This document shows, piece after piece, positions 1,840-52,727 of a stretch of DNA of 64,000 nucleotides. How positions within the stretch are numbered: position 1 is the first letter of the stretch; every line of letters starts with the position of its first letter. The position numbers and the translations under genes were made by a program. The notes beneath the pieces were generated by a model, which saw only the letters and a list, made by a program, of their open reading frames with translations, was not told the DNA's origin and searched no databases. The DNA comes from a virus, in the IMG/VR virus record IMGVR_UViG_3300025317_000002, positions 19,117 to 83,116 of that record; one strand, given 5' to 3'.

Positions 1840-4026
1840 ATGGCCGTTGAAGAGACCGCAGATTTCATGGGCATGAACATCGATTTCAACCTGAGCACTT
1901 CAGGTTCCTTCGAGCACATGCATCAAGCTGTAGATCTCTGGGACGGAATGCTTGATACCTTCTCAGACGTAACCAGACGTGCTGGCTTCACCAAGGACTC
2001 CATCAACAGCCTCACAAATTCTTTCGGCGACCTCTTAGACGACCTTCCTACCGTTGCTGAGATGCTAAAGGGCGTAAAGGACGTCCTTCCTGACATAGGG
2101 GTTGGCTTATTTGGACTGTTGCATCCGAAGATAGTGGAAGCTGCTGCAACGCTCCAGGAGCAGATCATCAACCTCAAAAACACTGCCCAAGGCATGGAGG
2201 AAGTAGCTGATTCCTTAGCCAAGGCAGCGAGAGATCTGGCAGCGGAAACAAAGGGAGTCTTTGACCCCGTTGCTACCCTCCAGGTGGCTCAGTTTTGGGC
2301 CAATCAAGGAGAGCAGATCGATGAGGTCATTCTTAAGCTTGTCAAATACGGAGAGGTCTTCAGCCAGGTTACGCACCAGAATAGATTTGCCACAGCCGAC
2401 TTTATGAGGGAACTCAAAACTACGCTCGGTATGTCCGAGACTGAGCTTGTAACTCTCCTTGCAAGCATCAACGCAGTCAAGAGTCTGAAGGGAATTCCAG
2501 GTTTCATGCCAGAAGACATTCAGCAGATCCTAAGAGCTAATGTTGGGGCACTGGGCATCATCAATCCTGAAGCCAGGACGAAAGCGATGGGAGACATTAT
2601 CGGTATGGCGGGAGCACTCAAGGCCGCAGGATTTACTGGGGATGTAGGGGGCATCTTCAACCAACTCTTAGTCGGTCTTCAGGCCCCATCAGAAAGTGCG
2701 GGATTCCAACGCATTGCGAAGCCACTTTCAATTGCTGGAGTGCCAATTGAGCCTATGCAGCGAGCAATGGATCGAGGAGACGTAAGAGAAGTCCTTGAAC
2801 TCTTTATCACAGGCCTTCGGGATTTGCTAAACACCACTGGAGGTGCTGGAAAACTTGCCGGCCTCACTAATGTAATGGGGATGAGCCCAGAAGAGGCTGC
2901 TAAGTTCGCAATGGTTCTTCCCCGCTTCGATCCAAAAGAAGCAGACAGAGTAATTGAAGTTTGGCAAAATATCAGCAAGAACATGCAACTTATGCTCGAG
3001 CAGTTTGACAGAACTCAAACAGGTTTCAATAAGGCTGTAGAGAGAAACAGAAATCTCATGACTCTCATCCGTCAGGATCTTGGAGTCGAGACTTTGAATC
3101 CCCTTACTTACGGACTAAATACCATAAATGAGCTTCTCGTCAAACTCCACACCTGGCTTGAGAAGCAAGATGAAGCAACTAAGAAAAACATTATAAGCTT
3201 CATTGGTTGGGGTGAAGCCATCTTAGGTCTCGTGGCTTCAGGCGGAGCACTTCGCATTCTGACTGGAGTTCTTGGAGGAGGAGCTGCTGCAGGTGGAATC
3301 TTTAGCCTTGGAGTTCTTGGGATGCTTATCGCTATTACGGCTGCCTTGACTGCAGGATACCTGGTTTGGAAGAACTGGGAGACAATCCTTCCTGTTATTA
3401 CAGCTCTACTTGGAAAGTTTAATGACAAAGCACTTGAAAACCCAGACTTTAATCCGCTTGGCCTCGGTGCAGTCTCTAGGAGTATGGATAAGTATATTCG
3501 AGAACAGATTGCTGCTGGAAACAAAGATCCTAATATGTGGGGTTGGGTTTGGGACACTCTCAAAGAATACTCCAATGTTAGGCCAGAAAATTCTCAAGAA
3601 GCCAGGATAAGAGGAGAACAAGAGAGAGCTTATCAACTAGAACTGGACAAGAGATACGGAGAAAAGCATGGCACAGGAGATTACTTTGATGAGCAAGGTT
3701 ATCATGCTCCTACAATTGAGGTCAAAATTGAGCCTGTAATACCAGATCCATTTCATCCTGGAAGAGTTGTAACCCCCTCAGAGCTGGCACCAGGAATCTT
3801 TGAAGACCTCAAATCTCTCCTTCAAGGAAACAATGTTTCCAAAGAGACAATCCAGAAGTTCGAAAAAGCCATCTCGGAAAATGCTGCTGCTTCCAAGGAA
3901 CACACTGAAGCAGTAAAAGCTGTTCGCCAGGCTCTTTTGGAAGAGGGAATTCTAATCAAGAGCAATCAGACAGATATACTCTTTCATTACGCTAGTATGC
4001 CCTCAAGACCCTATGTTCCATTCTAG
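1840..4026 (+). CDS. Tail tape measure protein
   Basis: 728 residues. The N-terminal half is long amphipathic helix with few aromatic residues. It is followed by a strongly hydrophobic region of two to three membrane-like segments (about residues 445-508, rich in Gly, Ala, Leu and Ile), then a variable polar tail with a final helix. This is the usual profile of tape measure proteins, which fix tail length and enter the host membrane during DNA injection. At about 0.15 nm per residue it predicts a tail near 110 nm. No lysozyme or peptidase motif was seen. It lies directly after the chaperone, as expected. Confidence 0.8.
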   Translation: MAVEETADFMGMNIDFNLSTSGSFEHMHQAVDLWDGMLDTFSDVTRRAGFTKDSINSLTNSFGDLLDDLPTVAEMLKGVKDVLPDIGVGLFGLLHPKIVEAAATLQEQIINLKNTAQGMEEVADSLAKAARDLAAETKGVFDPVATLQVAQFWANQGEQIDEVILKLVKYGEVFSQVTHQNRFATADFMRELKTTLGMSETELVTLLASINAVKSLKGIPGFMPEDIQQILRANVGALGIINPEARTKAMGDIIGMAGALKAAGFTGDVGGIFNQLLVGLQAPSESAGFQRIAKPLSIAGVPIEPMQRAMDRGDVREVLELFITGLRDLLNTTGGAGKLAGLTNVMGMSPEEAAKFAMVLPRFDPKEADRVIEVWQNISKNMQLMLEQFDRTQTGFNKAVERNRNLMTLIRQDLGVETLNPLTYGLNTINELLVKLHTWLEKQDEATKKNIISFIGWGEAILGLVASGGALRILTGVLGGGAAAGGIFSLGVLGMLIAITAALTAGYLVWKNWETILPVITALLGKFNDKALENPDFNPLGLGAVSRSMDKYIREQIAAGNKDPNMWGWVWDTLKEYSNVRPENSQEARIRGEQERAYQLELDKRYGEKHGTGDYFDEQGYHAPTIEVKIEPVIPDPFHPGRVVTPSELAPGIFEDLKSLLQGNNVSKETIQKFEKAISENAAASKEHTEAVKAVRQALLEEGILIKSNQTDILFHYASMPSRPYVPF

Positions 4027-15242: not shown

Positions 15243-15261
15243 GTTTCAATCTGGGCCGGAT

Positions 15262-15320
15262 ACCTCGACGGAGGGAAAAGTCAGAACCCTACTGGCCTTT
15301 CGGCCCTAAAAACATAGGGC
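15262..15320 (+). other. Cluster of short hairpins upstream of the homing endonuclease
   Basis: The 91-nt gap between 15242 and 15334 can form CCTC-GACG-GAGG (15263-15274), GGCC-TTTC-GGCC (15294-15305) and GCCCTA-AAAACA-TAGGGC (15303-15320). The last two share bases and exclude each other, as in an attenuator. A ribosome site (AAAGGGAG) follows. It could reflect intron or insertion boundary structure, or a translational control region. No complete group I intron core was found. Confidence 0.35.
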
Positions 15321-15333
15321 TCATCAAAGGGAG

Positions 15334-16431
15334 ATGAAAATGCAGCAGATATATCTATACGCACTAAGTGATGATTTAGAACCTGAGAATTACAGATACA
15401 TCGGAATAACGAAAAATCCCCATCAAAGGCTCCAGAAACATCTCTTGGAAGTGAAAAGGGACTTGAAGACTTATAAGACAGATTGGATACGAAAGACCAT
15501 TACAAATGGTTCAAACTTAAAAATGACTATTATCGAAGCACATACTGACTCTGATCAGGCAAAGCAACGTGAGCGTGAACTAATTGCTCTATACAAAGAA
15601 AGAGGCTATCGTCTTACGAATGCTACTGAAGGAGGAGATGGAATTTCAAATCCCTCTATGGAAATCCGCAAAAAGATAGGAGATGGAAATAGAGGAAAGG
15701 TTATGTCTCCAGAAGCTCGCTTAAAGATTGGTTTGGCTAGTATAGGAAGAAAACGCACTCCTGAAGCAAACGCAAGAATAGGCTTAGCTCATAGAGGAAA
15801 AACTATTTCTCTAGAAGCAAGAAAGAAAATGAGCGAAGCTCATAAAGGGAAGTCTCTATCTGAGGAACACAAGCGACACATCCGAGAAGCTCGAGAAAAC
15901 ATGTCTCCGGAGATGAAAGAGAAAATACGACTTAAACAGGTAGAGGCATTAAAAAATAGAGTCATAACTCAGGAAACCAGAGAAAAAATGAGACAGGCTC
16001 GTTTAGGCAGAAAATTCTCTGAGGAGACTAGAACTAAACTATCGAGAGCTAAGCAGGGTCGAAAACTTTCTGAAGAGACAAGAAAGAAAATGAGTGAGGT
16101 CCAAAGGAAAATTCAATCTCCTGAACGTAGCTTACGAATAAGCTCAAAGCTTAAAGGACAAAAGCGGTCTTCAGAATTTTGTCAACGGATGAGCCAAGCT
16201 CGTAGAGGTAAAATAAAAGTTGACTTAACAGGTCAAACGTTTACTCGTCTAACTGTGATTAAGTTGGACTCAATAACTAAAGATGGGCATACTCGTTGGT
16301 TATGTCAATGCAGTTGCGGAAATCAGAAAGTGGTTTGCCGTTGTAATTTACTCAAGGGAGGTATAAAAGGATGCGGATGCTTATTGAAGGAAACTAACGA
16401 AAATCGTAGGAAGGTGAAAAATGAGCAATAG
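15334..16431 (+). CDS. GIY-YIG homing endonuclease with NUMOD3 repeats
   Basis: 365 residues. The N-terminal GIY-YIG nuclease (about 1-105) shows YLYAL, a clear YIGIT, and the late LTNATEGGDG motif. It is followed by five to seven NUMOD3 DNA-binding repeats (GKxxSxExRxKxSxAxxG pattern, about 115-290) and a C-terminal domain with cysteines (CQCSCGNQK to GCGC, about 330-355) often found in phage HNH/AP2 and GIY-YIG proteins. It is probably a free-standing mobile nuclease that cuts an allele lacking it. It overlaps the next gene start by 11 nt, so insertion was precise. The first GIY half-motif is degenerate. Confidence 0.85.
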   Translation: MKMQQIYLYALSDDLEPENYRYIGITKNPHQRLQKHLLEVKRDLKTYKTDWIRKTITNGSNLKMTIIEAHTDSDQAKQRERELIALYKERGYRLTNATEGGDGISNPSMEIRKKIGDGNRGKVMSPEARLKIGLASIGRKRTPEANARIGLAHRGKTISLEARKKMSEAHKGKSLSEEHKRHIREARENMSPEMKEKIRLKQVEALKNRVITQETREKMRQARLGRKFSEETRTKLSRAKQGRKLSEETRKKMSEVQRKIQSPERSLRISSKLKGQKRSSEFCQRMSQARRGKIKVDLTGQTFTRLTVIKLDSITKDGHTRWLCQCSCGNQKVVCRCNLLKGGIKGCGCLLKETNENRRKVKNEQ

Positions 16432-34132: not shown

Positions 34133-35119
34133 TCAGAATGCAATAATAGTTTCAGAGGCAACCAGAAACTGAAACAACCTCGCCATACCAAGCCCAGCTC
34201 CGGATCTTGGATAATATCCCTGCTCAAAAAGCTCGAGATAGGGCTCAAAGTAACAAAGCACACGATCAGGATTAAAGCCCTTCTCTGATGCCAAATCTTT
34301 TAAGTGCAAGAGCATTGGAGAATCAAGAAGCTTCTCTCTCAAGATCCTTGAATCTGGTTCTCGCTCCGACCCACCAATTGTCTCTCCAGGTCCAACCTTA
34401 TCTGTTTCTGCTTCTCCAGGGAGGAGCAGATCGACGCAATCCACTTCACCTTTGTGCTCAAGAGATCTAGAACGCCTCATATTCCAGAACTTGATGCTTT
34501 CCGGGTAATGTGTGACCTGAACGATGCCATAAGTCTGAGTAAGAATGTTTTCCGCTTTGGCGTCGAGATCATCTCCATATTCAAGTTCAAAGCACTTGTC
34601 TTTCAGAGTTTGGATCGCCTCCTTGTAAGTGATTCTGGAAAATCCTCTTCTCCAGTGAGTATAGAGGGACCAATGCTGCCTTCTATTCAGAAGCTTGGAT
34701 CTTAGCACTCCTTGAATCACATAAGCAAGAAGATCTTCGTTGTAGTTCAGAAGATGTTCCAGATTTCCATCCAGGAATTCATACTCAATGAGTTCAAACT
34801 CCGTTTTATGGCGCCCGTCATCCCATTTACGCTCCTTCCTGAAGGATCTCCCTATGATATAGGCTCTGGATAAGCCACTACTCACCAGAAAATGTTCCAT
34901 ATCGAGCTGGCCAGTCTGACGTAGAATAGAAAATTCAGAACCACTCTCCACATAGAACAAATTAGCTACTACCTCGCACCCTCCAGAGATATTGACAATC
35001 TCGTTCAGGAATAGCTTCAGAAAGCCCTTGGAGTCCATCCACTCCTCAACCAGCTTCATGACATAGGCTTTAAGCTTTAGCTCATCCATAAGCGTCAAAC
35101 CAGAAAGCCCTACATTCAT
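34133..35119 (-). CDS. Asparaginyl-tRNA-synthetase-like class II catalytic domain
   Basis: 328 residues from ATG 35119, which has a perfect AAGGAGG-type ribosome site. The class II core is clear: motif 2 IGRSFRKERKWDDGRHKTEFELIEYEF (about residues 90-115), a VxxYPESIKFWNMRR segment like the AsnRS YP-x-x-IKPF block, PGETIGGSERE (GEIIGGSxRE), and motif 3 PRSGAGLGMARL (about 304-315). The N-terminal OB anticodon-binding domain of AsnRS is absent, as in archaeal AS-AR asparagine synthetase. It could make asparagine, aminoacylate another acceptor or form an aminoacyl-adenylate. Motif 3 has Ala where Glu is usual. Confidence 0.75.
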   Translation of the reverse strand: MNVGLSGLTLMDELKLKAYVMKLVEEWMDSKGFLKLFLNEIVNISGGCEVVANLFYVESGSEFSILRQTGQLDMEHFLVSSGLSRAYIIGRSFRKERKWDDGRHKTEFELIEYEFLDGNLEHLLNYNEDLLAYVIQGVLRSKLLNRRQHWSLYTHWRRGFSRITYKEAIQTLKDKCFELEYGDDLDAKAENILTQTYGIVQVTHYPESIKFWNMRRSRSLEHKGEVDCVDLLLPGEAETDKVGPGETIGGSEREPDSRILREKLLDSPMLLHLKDLASEKGFNPDRVLCYFEPYLELFEQGYYPRSGAGLGMARLFQFLVASETIIAF

Positions 35120-35120
35120 A

Positions 35121-36230
35121 TTATTCTCCTTCCTCCTTGCAACGTTCCAACCAAATATAGCCACATCCTCCACATTTCCGGTGGAGATGCTCCCCCTTTA
35201 CTCCAAATTGTAGAGCACAAAGAGAACTTTCATCTACTCCCGCACAGTAAACCGAGGTCTTGATTCCGTCCCACCCACATTTTCCGCATGGAGTCCAATT
35301 CGATAAAGGGGGGAGATCAAGATTGTTGAGAAATACCATTCTCCAAGATAAAAGCCTTCGCCTCTTCTCCTCGTAGGAATGCCCATCCCATTTATCTGGA
35401 TAATTGGGAAGAAACTCAAAGAGATCCATATTACTCTCTTCGATTAACCAGCTTACTTGCCCATTAGGAAGTTTCATGTAAAGGCTAGAATACAAACCAG
35501 AGTTGGAAAGTTGACTGGGTAGGATATAAGTCCCATCGGTATTAGCTGCTTCCAAGATAGCTTCCTTGTATGTCTGGTAAGCCGTATAAGCATCCTCTTC
35601 TTTCTCGAAAGTGCCAATTATTTTCTTCTTCCCGCCAATACTGGCATAAGCTCGGTATCTGCTCCCGTGCAACTCATAACCTTTCCCTTCAAAGGCTCGG
35701 TTTAGCATCTGCCCACGCTTCGTGGCAAGCCGAAGGTTCTGTCTCGTATTATTTAGCGGATTTCTGTCTATATGATCTACGGTATAACCATCAGGAATGC
35801 CTCCAAACATTCGTTTGGCAATCTGCACATGAAGATACTCGTCTGTAGTATGGTTTCGCACATAGCCTTTGTGAATGACAAGAGGGGAGCAGATTCCTAC
35901 ATCACAAAGCGATACTTCAATCGAAACCTCTTCCTTTCCATCTGGGCTAACTACTCTAAGGGAGGTCGGAGTCCAATCTACCCCGCCTTCCTTTGTTCTT
36001 CTAGCTACTCCAGTCTCCCAGCCTAAAGATAAAACCAATCGGGACAAGAATGCCAGAATCGTATCTCGATCCCAGCTTAGCTCACCTCGCAATGCCTGAA
36101 AACTTACAGCTTCCTCTTTTTCTTCAGGCTTGACTTCCAAGAAAATCTCCTTGGGATGTGTGACTTGGCACATCACACAAAGTCCATCTTCTACAGCTTG
36201 AGCCCCATGACACATCTTACAAATGTCCAT
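35121..36230 (-). CDS. HNH nuclease with AP2 domain embedded between zinc-finger segments
   Basis: 369 residues. The N-terminus has a CKMC...CVMC zinc finger (4-21). Then comes an HNH endonuclease core (VDHIDRNPLNNTRQNLRLAT, about 154-173), and an AP2-type DNA-binding domain (RYRAYASIGGKKKIIGTFEKEEDAYTAYQ, about 195-225). The last 110 residues hold CGKCGWDG, YCAGVD and CGGCGYIW, cysteine-rich segments like those of zinc ribbons elsewhere in this region. The HNH/AP2 part resembles a mobile homing nuclease; the flanks look like a host protein into which it inserted in frame. It lies 1 nt from the synthetase gene. Confidence 0.75.
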   Translation of the reverse strand: MDICKMCHGAQAVEDGLCVMCQVTHPKEIFLEVKPEEKEEAVSFQALRGELSWDRDTILAFLSRLVLSLGWETGVARRTKEGGVDWTPTSLRVVSPDGKEEVSIEVSLCDVGICSPLVIHKGYVRNHTTDEYLHVQIAKRMFGGIPDGYTVDHIDRNPLNNTRQNLRLATKRGQMLNRAFEGKGYELHGSRYRAYASIGGKKKIIGTFEKEEDAYTAYQTYKEAILEAANTDGTYILPSQLSNSGLYSSLYMKLPNGQVSWLIEESNMDLFEFLPNYPDKWDGHSYEEKRRRLLSWRMVFLNNLDLPPLSNWTPCGKCGWDGIKTSVYCAGVDESSLCALQFGVKGEHLHRKCGGCGYIWLERCKEEGE

Positions 36231-48782: not shown

Positions 48783-49214
48783 TTAGGAAGCCTTAGTTCC
48801 ACATTCAGGAAACTTAAGCTCAAGCCAAGTCATAATATAGCCAACAAGACTGGTTGCCTTGGGTATATCTGGATTCGAGGTAAACCCATTGGGGCTAAAC
48901 TCCAATCCCTTCAGCCGACTTGAAATTATCTGAAGAGGAATTCCATATTGGAGAGCAAGGGAGGCAAGAATAGCAAACGTATTCATCATTCCCCACATGG
49001 GAGAGCCAATTTTATTCATAAAGATGAAGATTTCCCCCGGCCTTCTATCTTCATAGAGACTAACTGTCAGATATCCTTCATAACCCTCAATAGAGAATTT
49101 ATGCGTTACAGATTCTCTTTCCATGGGAAGCTCTTCCCGATAAAGAGCATGGCCTTTACCAGAAAAAGCATTCTGATTTTTCACAAGGATCAGTTTTGAA
49201 ATCATTTTAACCAT
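48783..49214 (-). CDS. Free-standing C-terminal domain of B12-dependent ribonucleotide reductase
   Basis: 143 residues. Residues 26-135 match the C-terminal domain of class II (NrdJ) reductases: REELPMERESVTHKFSIEG, GYLTVSLYEDRRPGEIFIFMNKIGSPMWGMMNTFAILASLALQYGIPL, and a FSPNGFTSNPDIPKATSLVGYIMTWL block. In NrdJ and in split NrdJa/NrdJb enzymes this domain helps regenerate the active site. Here it stands alone; the catalytic subunit is not in the window. It may work with a catalytic chain elsewhere in the phage or with the host enzyme. It supports nucleotide supply. Confidence 0.75.
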   Translation of the reverse strand: MVKMISKLILVKNQNAFSGKGHALYREELPMERESVTHKFSIEGYEGYLTVSLYEDRRPGEIFIFMNKIGSPMWGMMNTFAILASLALQYGIPLQIISSRLKGLEFSPNGFTSNPDIPKATSLVGYIMTWLELKFPECGTKAS

Positions 49215-49780
49215 TCCTTTCGAAGCGAAATTCTTGTTGGAACTTTCTTCATACGTAACCCCTCTTGAAACAATTCTTCTCCTAGATACTTGAGAGATAA
49301 CGCTCTAGTTTTTTCGTCTTGAGTTACGATCCACCAGGCTGCTTCTCCTTTACGCTCTATTCCAGATCGATATTTCTGAATAACGTTTGCAACATACTTT
49401 TCAGAGGCACCAGTCTCCTTAAGCTTTTCCAGAAGCTCTGGATAAGTAATACCTTCCAAAAGAAGCTCATGGATCTTAAAGACCGTTGTCCCTTCTCCAA
49501 ATGGATTTACTGGAATCTGACTTTGAACTTGAGAAGAACTATCTGGAATCTGATGAATTACTCTTAAAATTGCACGGAGGAGATGTGCTGGAATTACTCC
49601 CTCTCTTCCGAGATCCATGCCAAGCGTGAGAGCAGCATGCTTTCCTTTTGGGAGATGGAGATCTCGCAATGCTCGAACAAGAAGATCCGATCTTCCCTTG
49701 TAATTAGATTCCAAACGAGAAATGATAGTATCTATTGTCGTTTTCATCTTTTGTTCCAAGGCTTGAATGCTTTGATCCAT
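49202..49780 (-). CDS. Hypothetical protein with a helix-turn-helix-like segment
   Basis: 192 residues. A helical N-terminal half (QALEQKMKTTIDTIISRLESN) is followed by a patch, EGITYPELLEKLKETGASEKYVANVIQKYRSG (about 125-155), with the shape of a winged or simple helix-turn-helix. C-terminus basic. It overlaps the RNR fragment and HAD genes. Possibly a regulator of these metabolic genes or a DNA-binding phage protein. Confidence 0.4.
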   Translation of the reverse strand: MDQSIQALEQKMKTTIDTIISRLESNYKGRSDLLVRALRDLHLPKGKHAALTLGMDLGREGVIPAHLLRAILRVIHQIPDSSSQVQSQIPVNPFGEGTTVFKIHELLLEGITYPELLEKLKETGASEKYVANVIQKYRSGIERKGEAAWWIVTQDEKTRALSLKYLGEELFQEGLRMKKVPTRISLRKEWLK

Positions 49781-50100
49781 TCCGTTGTGGGAAACGTTCC
49801 TTTAAAACAAAATGCTCTATCATCAATTGTAAGATGTGCTGGGAGCTTCTGAGTTGGAAAATCAAGCTTCTCAACGAGGGCACCATGCTTCTTAAGATAA
49901 ACAATCATAGCTGGGAGTCCCCTCTTGGAACAAGAACGACTGGAATAGATTGCCACATTAAAATGTTCAACCATCTCGCAGAGCCATTCGATTGTACCTG
50001 GAACAGGTAGACCTGGAATAGCAGCATTCCCAAGCCAATCTGGACTATAGTTATGCAAAACCGAATCAAAATCGCACAAAATAGTCTTTCTAAATGACAT
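49744..50100 (-). CDS. HAD-superfamily phosphatase (small, PNKP/Swiss-army type)
   Basis: 118 residues. HAD motifs: DFDSVLH with the nucleophile Asp10 and acid Asp12 (ILCDFDSV), SSRSCSKRG (Thr/Ser motif II), KKHG and TIDDRAFCF (motif IV acidic pair). The P-x-PG-x-x-EWL and FPTTEW segments resemble the HAD phosphatases of phages that remove 3' or nucleotide phosphates. Small size leaves no cap domain. It is the first gene 3' of the structured RNA region on the minus strand. Confidence 0.7.
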   Translation of the reverse strand: MSFRKTILCDFDSVLHNYSPDWLGNAAIPGLPVPGTIEWLCEMVEHFNVAIYSSRSCSKRGLPAMIVYLKKHGALVEKLDFPTQKLPAHLTIDDRAFCFKGTFPTTEWIKAFKPWNKR

Positions 50101-50136
50101 AATTCATCCTTTCTCTAGAGAAATAAATCTCCCTAA

Positions 50137-50156
50137 CTTGACAATGCATTGTCAAG
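50137..50156. repeat. 20-bp perfect palindrome
   Basis: CTTGACAATGCATTGTCAAG is a perfect dyad. As RNA it forms an 8-bp hairpin with TGCA loop on either strand. No T run follows on the minus strand, so it is not a typical terminator. It could be a binding site for a dimeric regulator of the HAD gene, a processing site, or the last helix of the RNA. It contains TTGACA on both strands but no well-spaced -10. Confidence 0.55.
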
Positions 50157-50240
50157 CTAAGAATTGATATAAATGAAAGTATGGGAAACGAATCATAGAA
50201 CCCACACTTTTCTTAGCTTGGCTTGATTTATATCAATTCT
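50153..50240 (-). other. Interleaved inverted repeats forming a possible pseudoknot
   Basis: Segment 50160-50174 is the exact complement of 50226-50240 (15 bp), while 50153-50162 is the exact complement of 50211-50220 (10 bp). The two pairs interleave and share a few bases, as in an H-type pseudoknot, with a 9-bp hairpin between (50178-50209, one G-U). It marks the 3' part of the RNA region, before the HAD gene. Confidence 0.5.
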
Positions 50241-50246
50241 GGGAGA

Positions 50247-50358
50247 TGGCGACAGCAAGAGGAATCGAACCTCACTCACCTGGTCCCCCAGATGAAGCCA
50301 CCAGACTAGACAAAATCTTTGGCTCCGGAGCTACTTGATTTTGCCTTGTGCTGCTGCC
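50247..50358 (-). other. tRNA-like module 3: acceptor helix, T-arm and CCA
   Basis: On the minus strand GGCAGCA (50352-50358) pairs with TGCTGTC (50251-50257; one G-U), followed by G and CCA (50247-50250). The T-arm has a TTCGATT loop at 50258-50274 (4 bp plus a U-U mismatch). The interior has a 7-bp hairpin (50311-50317/50337-50343) and an 8-bp stem closed by a GGGA tetraloop (50276-50295). No usable anticodon arm. At 112 nt it is longer than any standard tRNA. Confidence 0.45.
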
Positions 50359-50485
50359 TTTGTGCAGGCACGCCGACCTGCGTCACCCGTCAATTGAAAA
50401 CGTAAACATAAGTCAGAACAGGGAAACCTGACTTTATTGTTTGACATTCCTGGATTTGGTAGTCCAGGTAGGCACACCTTGTGCC

Positions 50486-50628
50486 TAGAGGCAGCCTCCG
50501 GAGTCGAACCGACCTTGATTTGTTTAGACACGTTTAATCAAAGGGTAAGCCTGCTTTCTCGCAGCCGAATTCATGTCCGCCTCAGATTCTAAAGTCAGCA
50601 GGTATTTGCCCCATGCTCCCAGGCTGCC
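50486..50628 (-). other. tRNA-like module 2: acceptor helix with large insertion
   Basis: On the minus strand GGCAGCC (50622-50628) pairs with GGCTGCC (50490-50496), then T and CTA. A T-arm-like hairpin with TTCGACT loop precedes it (4 of 5 bp formed). The module is 143 nt; its interior contains two stems (50513-50520/50536-50543 and 50550-50555/50597-50602) and a TTTAGAA stretch that looks like a Leu anticodon loop but lacks a pairing stem. Could be a tRNA interrupted by an insertion, or a T-loop module of a large RNA. Confidence 0.4.
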
Positions 50629-50842
50629 AAAATCTCTCATGCTTGAGAACCAAAAGTAGCTAGGGGTAAGATATTCTTATGGGTAACATATCTTCTGTAA
50701 GCATGAGAGAATTCGTTCAAATCAAATTCCCTTATCATCTGTCGAAGTGAAGGTAAGAGCTTCTAGGTTGTTTTGGGGGACCTTACCTTCCTTACTTCGT
50801 CTCAAACCACCATCCGCGAAACTACGACTGATGATAAGGAAA

Positions 50843-50911
50843 TGGTGGGGATGTCAGGATTCGAACCTGATAAGGCCTAGACATGTCTCCCGTTCCAACA
50901 GTGTCATCCCC
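50843..50911 (-). other. tRNA-like module 1: perfect acceptor and T-arm, abnormal body
   Basis: On the minus strand GGGGATG (50905-50911) pairs perfectly with CATCCCC (50847-50853), followed by A and CCA (50843-50846). A 5-bp T-arm with TTCGAAT loop is at 50854-50870. Only 34 nt lie between, against about 41 in tRNA, and no anticodon stem can be formed. The 5' part (GGGGxTGAxxCTG to ACGGGA) faintly recalls the start of tmRNA. Functional decoding is unlikely; a structural or processing role is inferred. Confidence 0.5.
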
Positions 50912-50948
50912 CATATTTACTACCAACAAACCGGACACTTGATACTCA

Positions 50949-52727
50949 TCAAACAACGATCTCTGACGCCCCATTTACCTTTCTGACATGCCAGATAACT
51001 GGAATGGAGCTTTTCACAATAGGATTGTGGGAAGTGAGAATCACAGTATCATCAAAGTATCTCAGGATATAAGAGAGAATGCTTTGAATTCCTTCTGGAT
51101 CAAGCGTATCTAAGACCTCATCTAGAAATAAGAAGGGCAACTCGACTCCCGCTCGGAGTGCAAACTCTCTTAGAGAAAGCTGAACCATGAGATCGACTCT
51201 CCGTTCTTCCCCAGAAGAGAGAGATTTATAGAGATTCTCCTCCCCATCTATGAGAATCGAGATCTTTTCCCTCTGGGCACCGCTTTTGAGACTGGTTGTT
51301 GATTGAAGCGAGACAAGAAACGTTTGAAGCTCCTGGGAAAGAGTCTTCAGGAATCCATTCAGAAATTCAATCGAGCTATCCAGCATATAGCTTCTAATAT
51401 TGATAAAGCACTCTTTGACGTAAGACATAAGGTCCACAGACCTACTCAAAGACTCTTTCTCAGATTTCAGAGCTTGAATTACGTTTTCTTTCTCGGTCAA
51501 CTTAGCTTGAAGCTTCAGTTTAAGTTCTATAAACTCTGTCTTCTTGGAATTGTCTTGAAGAGATTTTTGCTTCAGACTAAGTTCTGTTCTAAGGCTCGTA
51601 ACCTTAGCCAAAGCTTCTTGATACAATATCTCGTCTTCTCGCATTTTGAAGGTATGCCCATCAATCTTTTGTTCCAAGATTCTCAACTCTTGAAGGAACA
51701 CGGCACTCTTTTGCAGAAGCATACTTTCCGATCTAATACATGTTTCAAGCTCAAAAGCAAGTTCCGCAACAAGCTTGGTTTGATTCTCCGGAGTAAGGGA
51801 TGCCCCACAAACCAGGCAAGTTTTGTTTTCCAGGAGTCTAGCTCGCTTCTTCTCTAAGACTTCCACCTTAGATTTTGCCTTTTGTGCATCTTGCAAGGAT
51901 GTGTTAGACATTCGTTCGGAAAGGCTCTTCTTTCGGAAGAGAATTTCCCACTCCTCCTGAAATGCTTTTCTTTGAGCTGATCTATCTTTCAGAGTTAATT
52001 CTGCAAGGTTTAGCTCTGCTTTGAGCTTATCTATTTCTTCAAAGAGCAGTTCCCGTTCAGAAGACATAACACTTCTAAGCTTTGCCTCAAGTTCCTCCAG
52101 ATGTAACTGTGCTTCTTTGGCCTCTACCTCCAGAAGCTCAAGTTTCCTGAGAACTGAAGACATAAGCTCGGATTTCTCCTCCAACATCTCCTTGGATTTC
52201 AGGATAAGTCGATCATAGATGGTGAGGCCCAAGATAAATTCCAAGGTCTCTTTCCTCATTTGGTCGGTGAGACCGGAAAACCTCCAGTTTACCTTGTTCG
52301 AGATGAAGGAAAGTTGAAAGAGTAGATCCGGATGCGTCCGAACGAGACGCCGAATGAGATCATTTGTCAGCGTCGCAGTATCCAAGGAGAGATCTTGAGG
52401 AGGTTCGCTGCCCACATCAAAGAACGTAACGCCATGCTTGATAAAACCATTGGATGAAGCTTTTCCGCGAAAGCGATTGACCTGGTAACGAGAATTACCC
52501 TTCTCAAAGAAAAGAACTACTTCAGAATTAAATTCCCCTCGGTGGAGAATGTCGTTTCCTGAGATGCCCTTGGAAGTAACCCCAAAGAGAGAATAAGGAA
52601 CAAGATCAAGAAGATTGCTTTTTCCTTCCCCATTCTTTCCAGAAAGCAAGATTACACTCCGAGGGAAATCCAAAGAGATCTCCTTAAAAGACATAAAGTT
52701 TGTGGCTGAGACAGATCCTATCCGCAA
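50949..52727 (-). CDS. SbcC/Rad50-like ATPase, T4 gp46 homologue
   Basis: 592 residues. Walker A GKNGEGKS (30-37), a central pair of coiled coils (about 190-460) with a CLVCG zinc-hook motif near 300, ABC signature LSSGEERRVDLM, and Walker B LFLDEVLDTLDPEG. Partner of the adjacent nuclease: together they resect and process DNA ends for recombination-dependent replication, as T4 gp46/gp47. Its start overlaps the nuclease stop by 10 nt. It lies directly upstream of the structured RNA. Confidence 0.9.
   Translation of the reverse strand: MRIGSVSATNFMSFKEISLDFPRSVILLSGKNGEGKSNLLDLVPYSLFGVTSKGISGNDILHRGEFNSEVVLFFEKGNSRYQVNRFRGKASSNGFIKHGVTFFDVGSEPPQDLSLDTATLTNDLIRRLVRTHPDLLFQLSFISNKVNWRFSGLTDQMRKETLEFILGLTIYDRLILKSKEMLEEKSELMSSVLRKLELLEVEAKEAQLHLEELEAKLRSVMSSERELLFEEIDKLKAELNLAELTLKDRSAQRKAFQEEWEILFRKKSLSERMSNTSLQDAQKAKSKVEVLEKKRARLLENKTCLVCGASLTPENQTKLVAELAFELETCIRSESMLLQKSAVFLQELRILEQKIDGHTFKMREDEILYQEALAKVTSLRTELSLKQKSLQDNSKKTEFIELKLKLQAKLTEKENVIQALKSEKESLSRSVDLMSYVKECFINIRSYMLDSSIEFLNGFLKTLSQELQTFLVSLQSTTSLKSGAQREKISILIDGEENLYKSLSSGEERRVDLMVQLSLREFALRAGVELPFLFLDEVLDTLDPEGIQSILSYILRYFDDTVILTSHNPIVKSSIPVIWHVRKVNGASEIVV

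Follow-up and report, generated by a model that had tools for sequence, protein, structure and literature searches.

Three tRNA-like modules in an 848-nt gene-free gap of a phage contig, a possible array of tRNA-mimic RNAs

The gap and its neighbours

The DNA considered here comes from an 83,116-base IMG/VR virus record (contig L089), of which a 64-kb window (G000:C1:19117-83116) was analysed; positions are those of the window unless the contig is named. If ORFs of 90 aa or more are taken as its bounds, the gap occupies exactly 50101-50948 (848 nt) and is the largest in the window, the next measuring 290 nt. All genes flanking it lie on the minus strand, and it begins where an SbcC-like gene ends and stops where a 118-aa gene starts. 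In minus-strand order, the features are as follows.

50949-52727, minus strand: SbcC-like recombination nuclease subunit (PHROG_77, E 2.6e-59), upstream and co-directional
50843-50911, minus strand: tRNA-like module A, with acceptor GGGGATG/CATCCCC (7/7 Watson-Crick pairs), T-arm TCAGG-TTCGAAT-CCTGA and an encoded ACCA end
50716-50842, minus strand: spacer separating modules A and B, a long nested hairpin, CCTTATCATC/GATGATAAGG enclosing an inner stem GAAGGTAAG/CTTACCTTC (z -2.9; inverted repeat I1)
50629-50713, minus strand: hairpin spacer directly 5' of module B, CTCTCATGCTT/AAGCATGAGAG (z -4.85 over 50629-50722; inverted repeat I3)
50486-50628, minus strand: tRNA-like module B, with acceptor GGCAGCC/GGCTGCC (7/7) and a 4-bp T-arm with TTCGACT loop, without encoded CCA
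50359-50485, minus strand: spacer between modules B and C, with at least three hairpins (z -3.17)
50247-50358, minus strand: tRNA-like module C, with acceptor GGCAGCA/TGCTGTC (7 pairs, one of them G-T) and a 4-bp T-arm with TTCGATT loop
50101-50246, minus strand: 3' end, with an 18-nt inverted repeat, a crossing 11-bp helix, and a palindromic hairpin followed by a T-rich tail (z -7.2 over 50110-50246)
49744-50100, minus strand: 118-aa gene with weak PHROG matches, downstream and co-directional

Small ORFs are all that the gap offers by way of coding sequence. Their coding scores (-0.47 to 0.19, versus 0.24-0.40 in the four neighbour genes scored) are poor and they have zero matches in PHROGs and Pfam, which tells against a protein gene and agrees with the preliminary description of this DNA, where an 848-nt region without genes had been reported. 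A promoter search of the locus produced none that stands out. The same description had placed the virus among the myoviruses, an assignment that fits a weak tail-sheath match (contig L089 16465-18720; Pfam E 0.0014, which is under the family cut-off). Elsewhere in the window are a stand-alone 143-aa TSCPD-domain protein (48783-49214, minus strand) that matches part of vitamin B12-dependent ribonucleotide reductase, and an int-alpA RNA (15253-15319, plus strand) that scores above the Rfam gathering score and lies 14 nt ahead of the ORF at 15334-16431.

Folding of the gap and the three modules

Folded as a whole, the minus strand of the gap reaches a minimum free energy of -289.8 kcal/mol (z -5.45), which was equalled by 0 of 20 dinucleotide shuffles, and the plus strand gives z -3.9; the structural evidence for the gap, here and below, is single-sequence. 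Local 120-nt windows fall to z -6.5 at the 3' end, several more lying at -2.6 to -3.4, and hairpins are found throughout, so that the dense minus-strand structure of the preliminary description is upheld. The two stems that it had named are also present, as the inverted repeats 50726-50748/50821-50843 (87% complementary) and 50630-50644/50699-50713 (93%). At the 3' end, where it had seen a pseudoknot-type structure, the arm pairs 50160-50177/50223-50240 and 50153-50163/50210-50220 (11 bp, 100%) do cross each other, in what is a possible pseudoknot, and these crossing helices compete with a terminator-like palindromic hairpin (50134-50159). The 3'-end element stands just ahead of the next gene. 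The strongest predicted helices of the gap are local, lying inside modules or spacers.

The modules were delimited by scanning both strands of the 64-kb window for T-arms that have a TTCRANY loop and are directly adjoined by a 7-bp acceptor. This pattern has three sites (50911-50843, 50628-50486 and 50358-50247), all on the minus strand and all within the gap, and CCA follows two of the three (modules A and C). Random sequence with the same dinucleotide content yields approximately 0.7 sites per 64 kb, none with CCA, while 20,000 dinucleotide shuffles of the gap region produced one module 64 times and two modules never. The three tRNA-like modules noticed at the outset are therefore real and beyond chance, with the qualification that their 5' acceptor strand could be partly a chance match, the T-arm and CCA being the firmer part.

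A 7-bp acceptor that abuts a T-arm with a TTCRANY loop is what the three modules share with canonical tRNAs; a four-arm cloverleaf with D-arm and 7-nt anticodon loop was not found, and none of the interiors of modules A, B and C yielded a standard D-arm together with an anticodon arm. Module A has an interior of just 34 nt, from which a standard D or anticodon arm is absent. Several hairpins occupy the interior of module B (108 nt), including one immediately ahead of the T-arm, and the interior of module C (77 nt) contains one of 10 bp and, again immediately ahead of the T-arm, one with the sequence CATCTGG-GGGA-CCAGGTG; module C ends with a discriminator G and CCA. Folded separately, module C has z -3.17, and modules A and B alone (z -1.1 and -1.4) fold little better than shuffles. 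Forcing the tRNA-like fold on the modules costs just 1.7-3.3 kcal/mol.

Known RNA families, T4 species 1 RNA and the search for relatives

Searches for tRNA genes came back empty at standard settings. ARAGORN finds no tRNA and no tmRNA in the 64-kb window by default and no tRNA in the window in mitochondrial mode, and the Rfam tRNA model (RF00005) detects no canonical tRNA across the 83-kb contig. Lowered ARAGORN thresholds bring up weak intron-bearing tRNA fits only, together with tmRNA candidates that appear only at the 60% threshold and have no identified tag, so intron-bearing, mitochondrial-type or permuted tRNAs and tmRNAs were rejected, nothing convincing having been obtained with this program. 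The best RF00005 score in the gap is 19.5 bits (cut-off 29) and concerns module A only. Both tmRNA and permuted tmRNA resemble the modules in that their tRNA-like domain lacks a normal anticodon arm. The gap scores below the tmRNA_permuted cut-off (18.6 versus 47 bits), with a match restricted to model positions 36-93 (T-arm, acceptor and spacer). What the sequence itself shows is that the modules are present, that they do not occur at random, and that the locus has neither coding capacity nor canonical tRNAs.

Rfam as a whole has nothing at gathering score in the gap, and up to E 10 the only meaningful matches are weak tRNA-like ones on module A. The preliminary description had suggested a divergent member of the GOLLD or ROOL classes, which lie by tRNAs in phage genomes, or a new class, and had proposed the covariance-model check. 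These two models, run with permissive filters, have no match to the gap down to E 10, and canonical tRNAs, as stated above, are lacking from the contig, which tells against both membership and a GOLLD/ROOL-like site. More generally, the lack of a meaningful Rfam match in the gap leaves GOLLD, ROOL, tmRNA and known ribozymes without support, and Rfam families, none of which matched, were rejected. GOLLD and ROOL RNAs are phage-encoded, structured, roughly 650 to >800 nt long and of unknown function (PMC12286853). The gap resembles them in being phage-encoded, in size and in being structured, but differs in having no Rfam match, no adjoining canonical tRNAs and a modular anatomy instead of one fold. 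What stands of the large noncoding phage RNA first proposed is thus a structured, noncoding and tRNA-related locus, but its anatomy looks more like an array than like a single giant RNA.

A closer parallel is offered by species 1 RNA of T4 (rnaC), a phage RNA that has been confirmed by Northern blot and whose function is unknown (PMC9697503). T4 rnaC (139 nt; L103 1909-2047), against which no Rfam family scores above its cut-off, was aligned with six relatives, making seven sequences from T4-like phages. In this small alignment, covariation is seen in the acceptor stem, in the T-arm and in a hairpin that immediately precedes the T-arm (both sides change in 12 of 20 pairs), and 90% of cells are paired versus 36-43% on sliding by 1-3 columns; all but one of the seven sequences have mismatches at the two central acceptor pairs. 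The alignment supports covarying closure of rnaC by an acceptor stem that abuts the T-arm, and the hairpin immediately ahead of the latter.

This layout (acceptor abutting T-arm, hairpin directly 5' of the T-arm and non-tRNA interior, in a phage-encoded RNA) is that of modules B and C, module A being without a clear hairpin ahead of its T-arm, and the size of rnaC (~140 nt) is that of module B. There are differences too, since rnaC sits within the tRNA cluster of T4 and its relatives, where one such RNA is found in T4 beside real tRNAs, whereas the gap has three, in a contig from which canonical tRNAs are lacking. Kinship to the rnaC family, in sequence or structure, was not found for the modules. 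With default filters, our rnaC model (R1) finds T4 only and has no match to the gap, and unfiltered it gives 12.3, 3.5 and 3.3 bits for modules A, B and C, scores that are carried mainly by the T-arm. The gap RNAs may work like rnaC, by an analogy of layout that falls short of demonstrated kinship.

No homologous locus was found by phage DNA search or in GTDB genomes. IMG/VR was searched (i) with both flanking proteins and the polymerase, (ii) via terminase alignment, where the closest terminase is 34% identical, and (iii) with DNA patterns drawn from modules A and B and from the second RNA region described below, and no record carrying the gap RNA or a homologous locus emerged; nor is the RNA carried by any of 18 related records that were compared by DNA. 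Several terminase-related IMG/VR records share the gene order gp47-gp46-terminase-portal, and in the regions examined these relatives have no RNA gap between gp46 and terminase. A relaxed module A pattern did retrieve a 63-nt tRNA-like element, present in nine IMG/VR contigs (L110-L118) that belong to a different phage group. This element has a GGGGATG...CATCCCC acceptor and a T-arm, shows no evident D-arm and is not called a tRNA by ARAGORN; it was rejected as a homolog of the gap locus. On a terminase-related viral contig (L048), ARAGORN places a 531-nt tmRNA* with the tag AKNNVLVMAKAAVKKVADLFAPDMQLAFAA at 2787-3317, next to two tRNAs.

Processed tRNA mimics and competing explanations

The explanation towards which we lean, if only slightly, is that tRNA-mimic RNAs, encoded in the gap as an array and released by processing, work like T4 species 1 RNA. 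The minus strand would encode three such RNAs, co-transcribed in line with the neighbour genes, each consisting of a tRNA acceptor stem and T-arm that close a non-tRNA interior; strong hairpins would part the members of the array, and the terminator-like hairpin would close it. Host enzymes of tRNA processing (RNase P, cutting at the 5' side of the acceptor, and those of 3' trimming and CCA maturation) could recognise the acceptor/T-arm helix of the modules, and the encoded CCA ends of modules A and C suggest processing into pieces. The products would be stable RNAs like T4 species 1 RNA, which might serve as tRNA mimics and, for instance, keep host enzymes that bind tRNA or defence nucleases that cut it occupied, or divert them. 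Three RNAs of rnaC layout in a phage with no canonical tRNAs, if indeed present, would point to a device that recurs among phages, in which RNAs other than tRNAs are closed in tRNA fashion, and the gap locus would provide an independent system for finding out what such closure is for (stability, processing, or decoying of tRNA-directed enzymes or defences).

An unlikely alternative, in which the acceptor/T-arm modules would be building blocks, is that the whole gap is one ornate RNA of ~850 nt, GOLLD/ROOL-like and possibly self-assembling. The full-length minus-strand z of -5.45, a size matching GOLLD and ROOL, the hairpins throughout and the existence of a second, larger structured region in the same phage speak for such an RNA, but neither Rfam model matches, the strongest predicted helices remain local, and the CCA encoded on modules A and C points to cutting into pieces.

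Somewhat less likely again is a decayed tRNA cluster, in which the anticodon domains of former tRNA genes would have disappeared or given way to insertions. Instability is a known trait of phage tRNA clusters, and T-loops of tRNA type, CCA ends and the weak intron-bearing fits of ARAGORN at lowered thresholds are consistent with such an origin. Neutral decay, however, would not leave just acceptor and T-loop intact, and it is precisely the acceptors (7/7 in all three) and the consensus T-loops that are preserved around non-tRNA interiors, in a contig that retains no intact tRNA and between spacers that are strongly structured. It is improbable that the modules are processing punctuation, where RNase P and 3'-end cuts would separate the flanking messages or release the spacer hairpins, which would then be the actual products. 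The co-directional genes on both sides and the structured spacers would suit this role, but three modules exceed the need and punctuation does not require interiors that are large and structured.

One protein of the window is a possible partner of the modules.

34133-35173, minus strand: class II aminoacyl-tRNA synthetase catalytic core, AsnRS-like, 346 aa (Pfam tRNA-synt_2, E 3e-32), 15 kb from the gap

It covers positions 134-436 of the 451 of the asparaginyl-tRNA synthetase profile, aligns with residues 135-414 of PDB 1x54, and has readable motifs 2 (FRKE, RH..EF) and 3 (GAGLGMAR) in its translation. The N-terminal anticodon-binding domain is missing, and the gene upstream is HNH-endonuclease-like; P-SSM2 has a similar core-only protein, annotated as a tRNA ligase. 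As tRNA-Asn carries a G discriminator and CCA, like module C, this core might charge at least one anticodon-less module, the charged RNAs serving something other than decoding, a scenario that we consider very improbable, and a role as asparagine synthetase is as likely as, or likelier than, a link to the modules.

The second RNA region lies outside the window, at the start of the contig, whose bases 1-1480 are G+C-rich and gene-poor. Its minus strand folds with z -8.3 (60-1000) and -11.6 (700-1480), the plus strand being weaker over 700-1480 (z -4.9), and it has no match in Rfam or the phage collection. Contig bases 60-1480 on the minus strand (about 1.4 kb) are the strongest giant-RNA candidate of this phage, ahead of the gap. 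Inside this region, on the minus strand from contig position 179 to ~114, there is a fourth tRNA-like module, which combines a 7-bp acceptor (GGCGCTT/AGGCGCC) and a 6-bp T-arm with a UGCGAGU loop and one long middle arm. After the region come six copies of a 19-bp repeat (contig 1902-2020).
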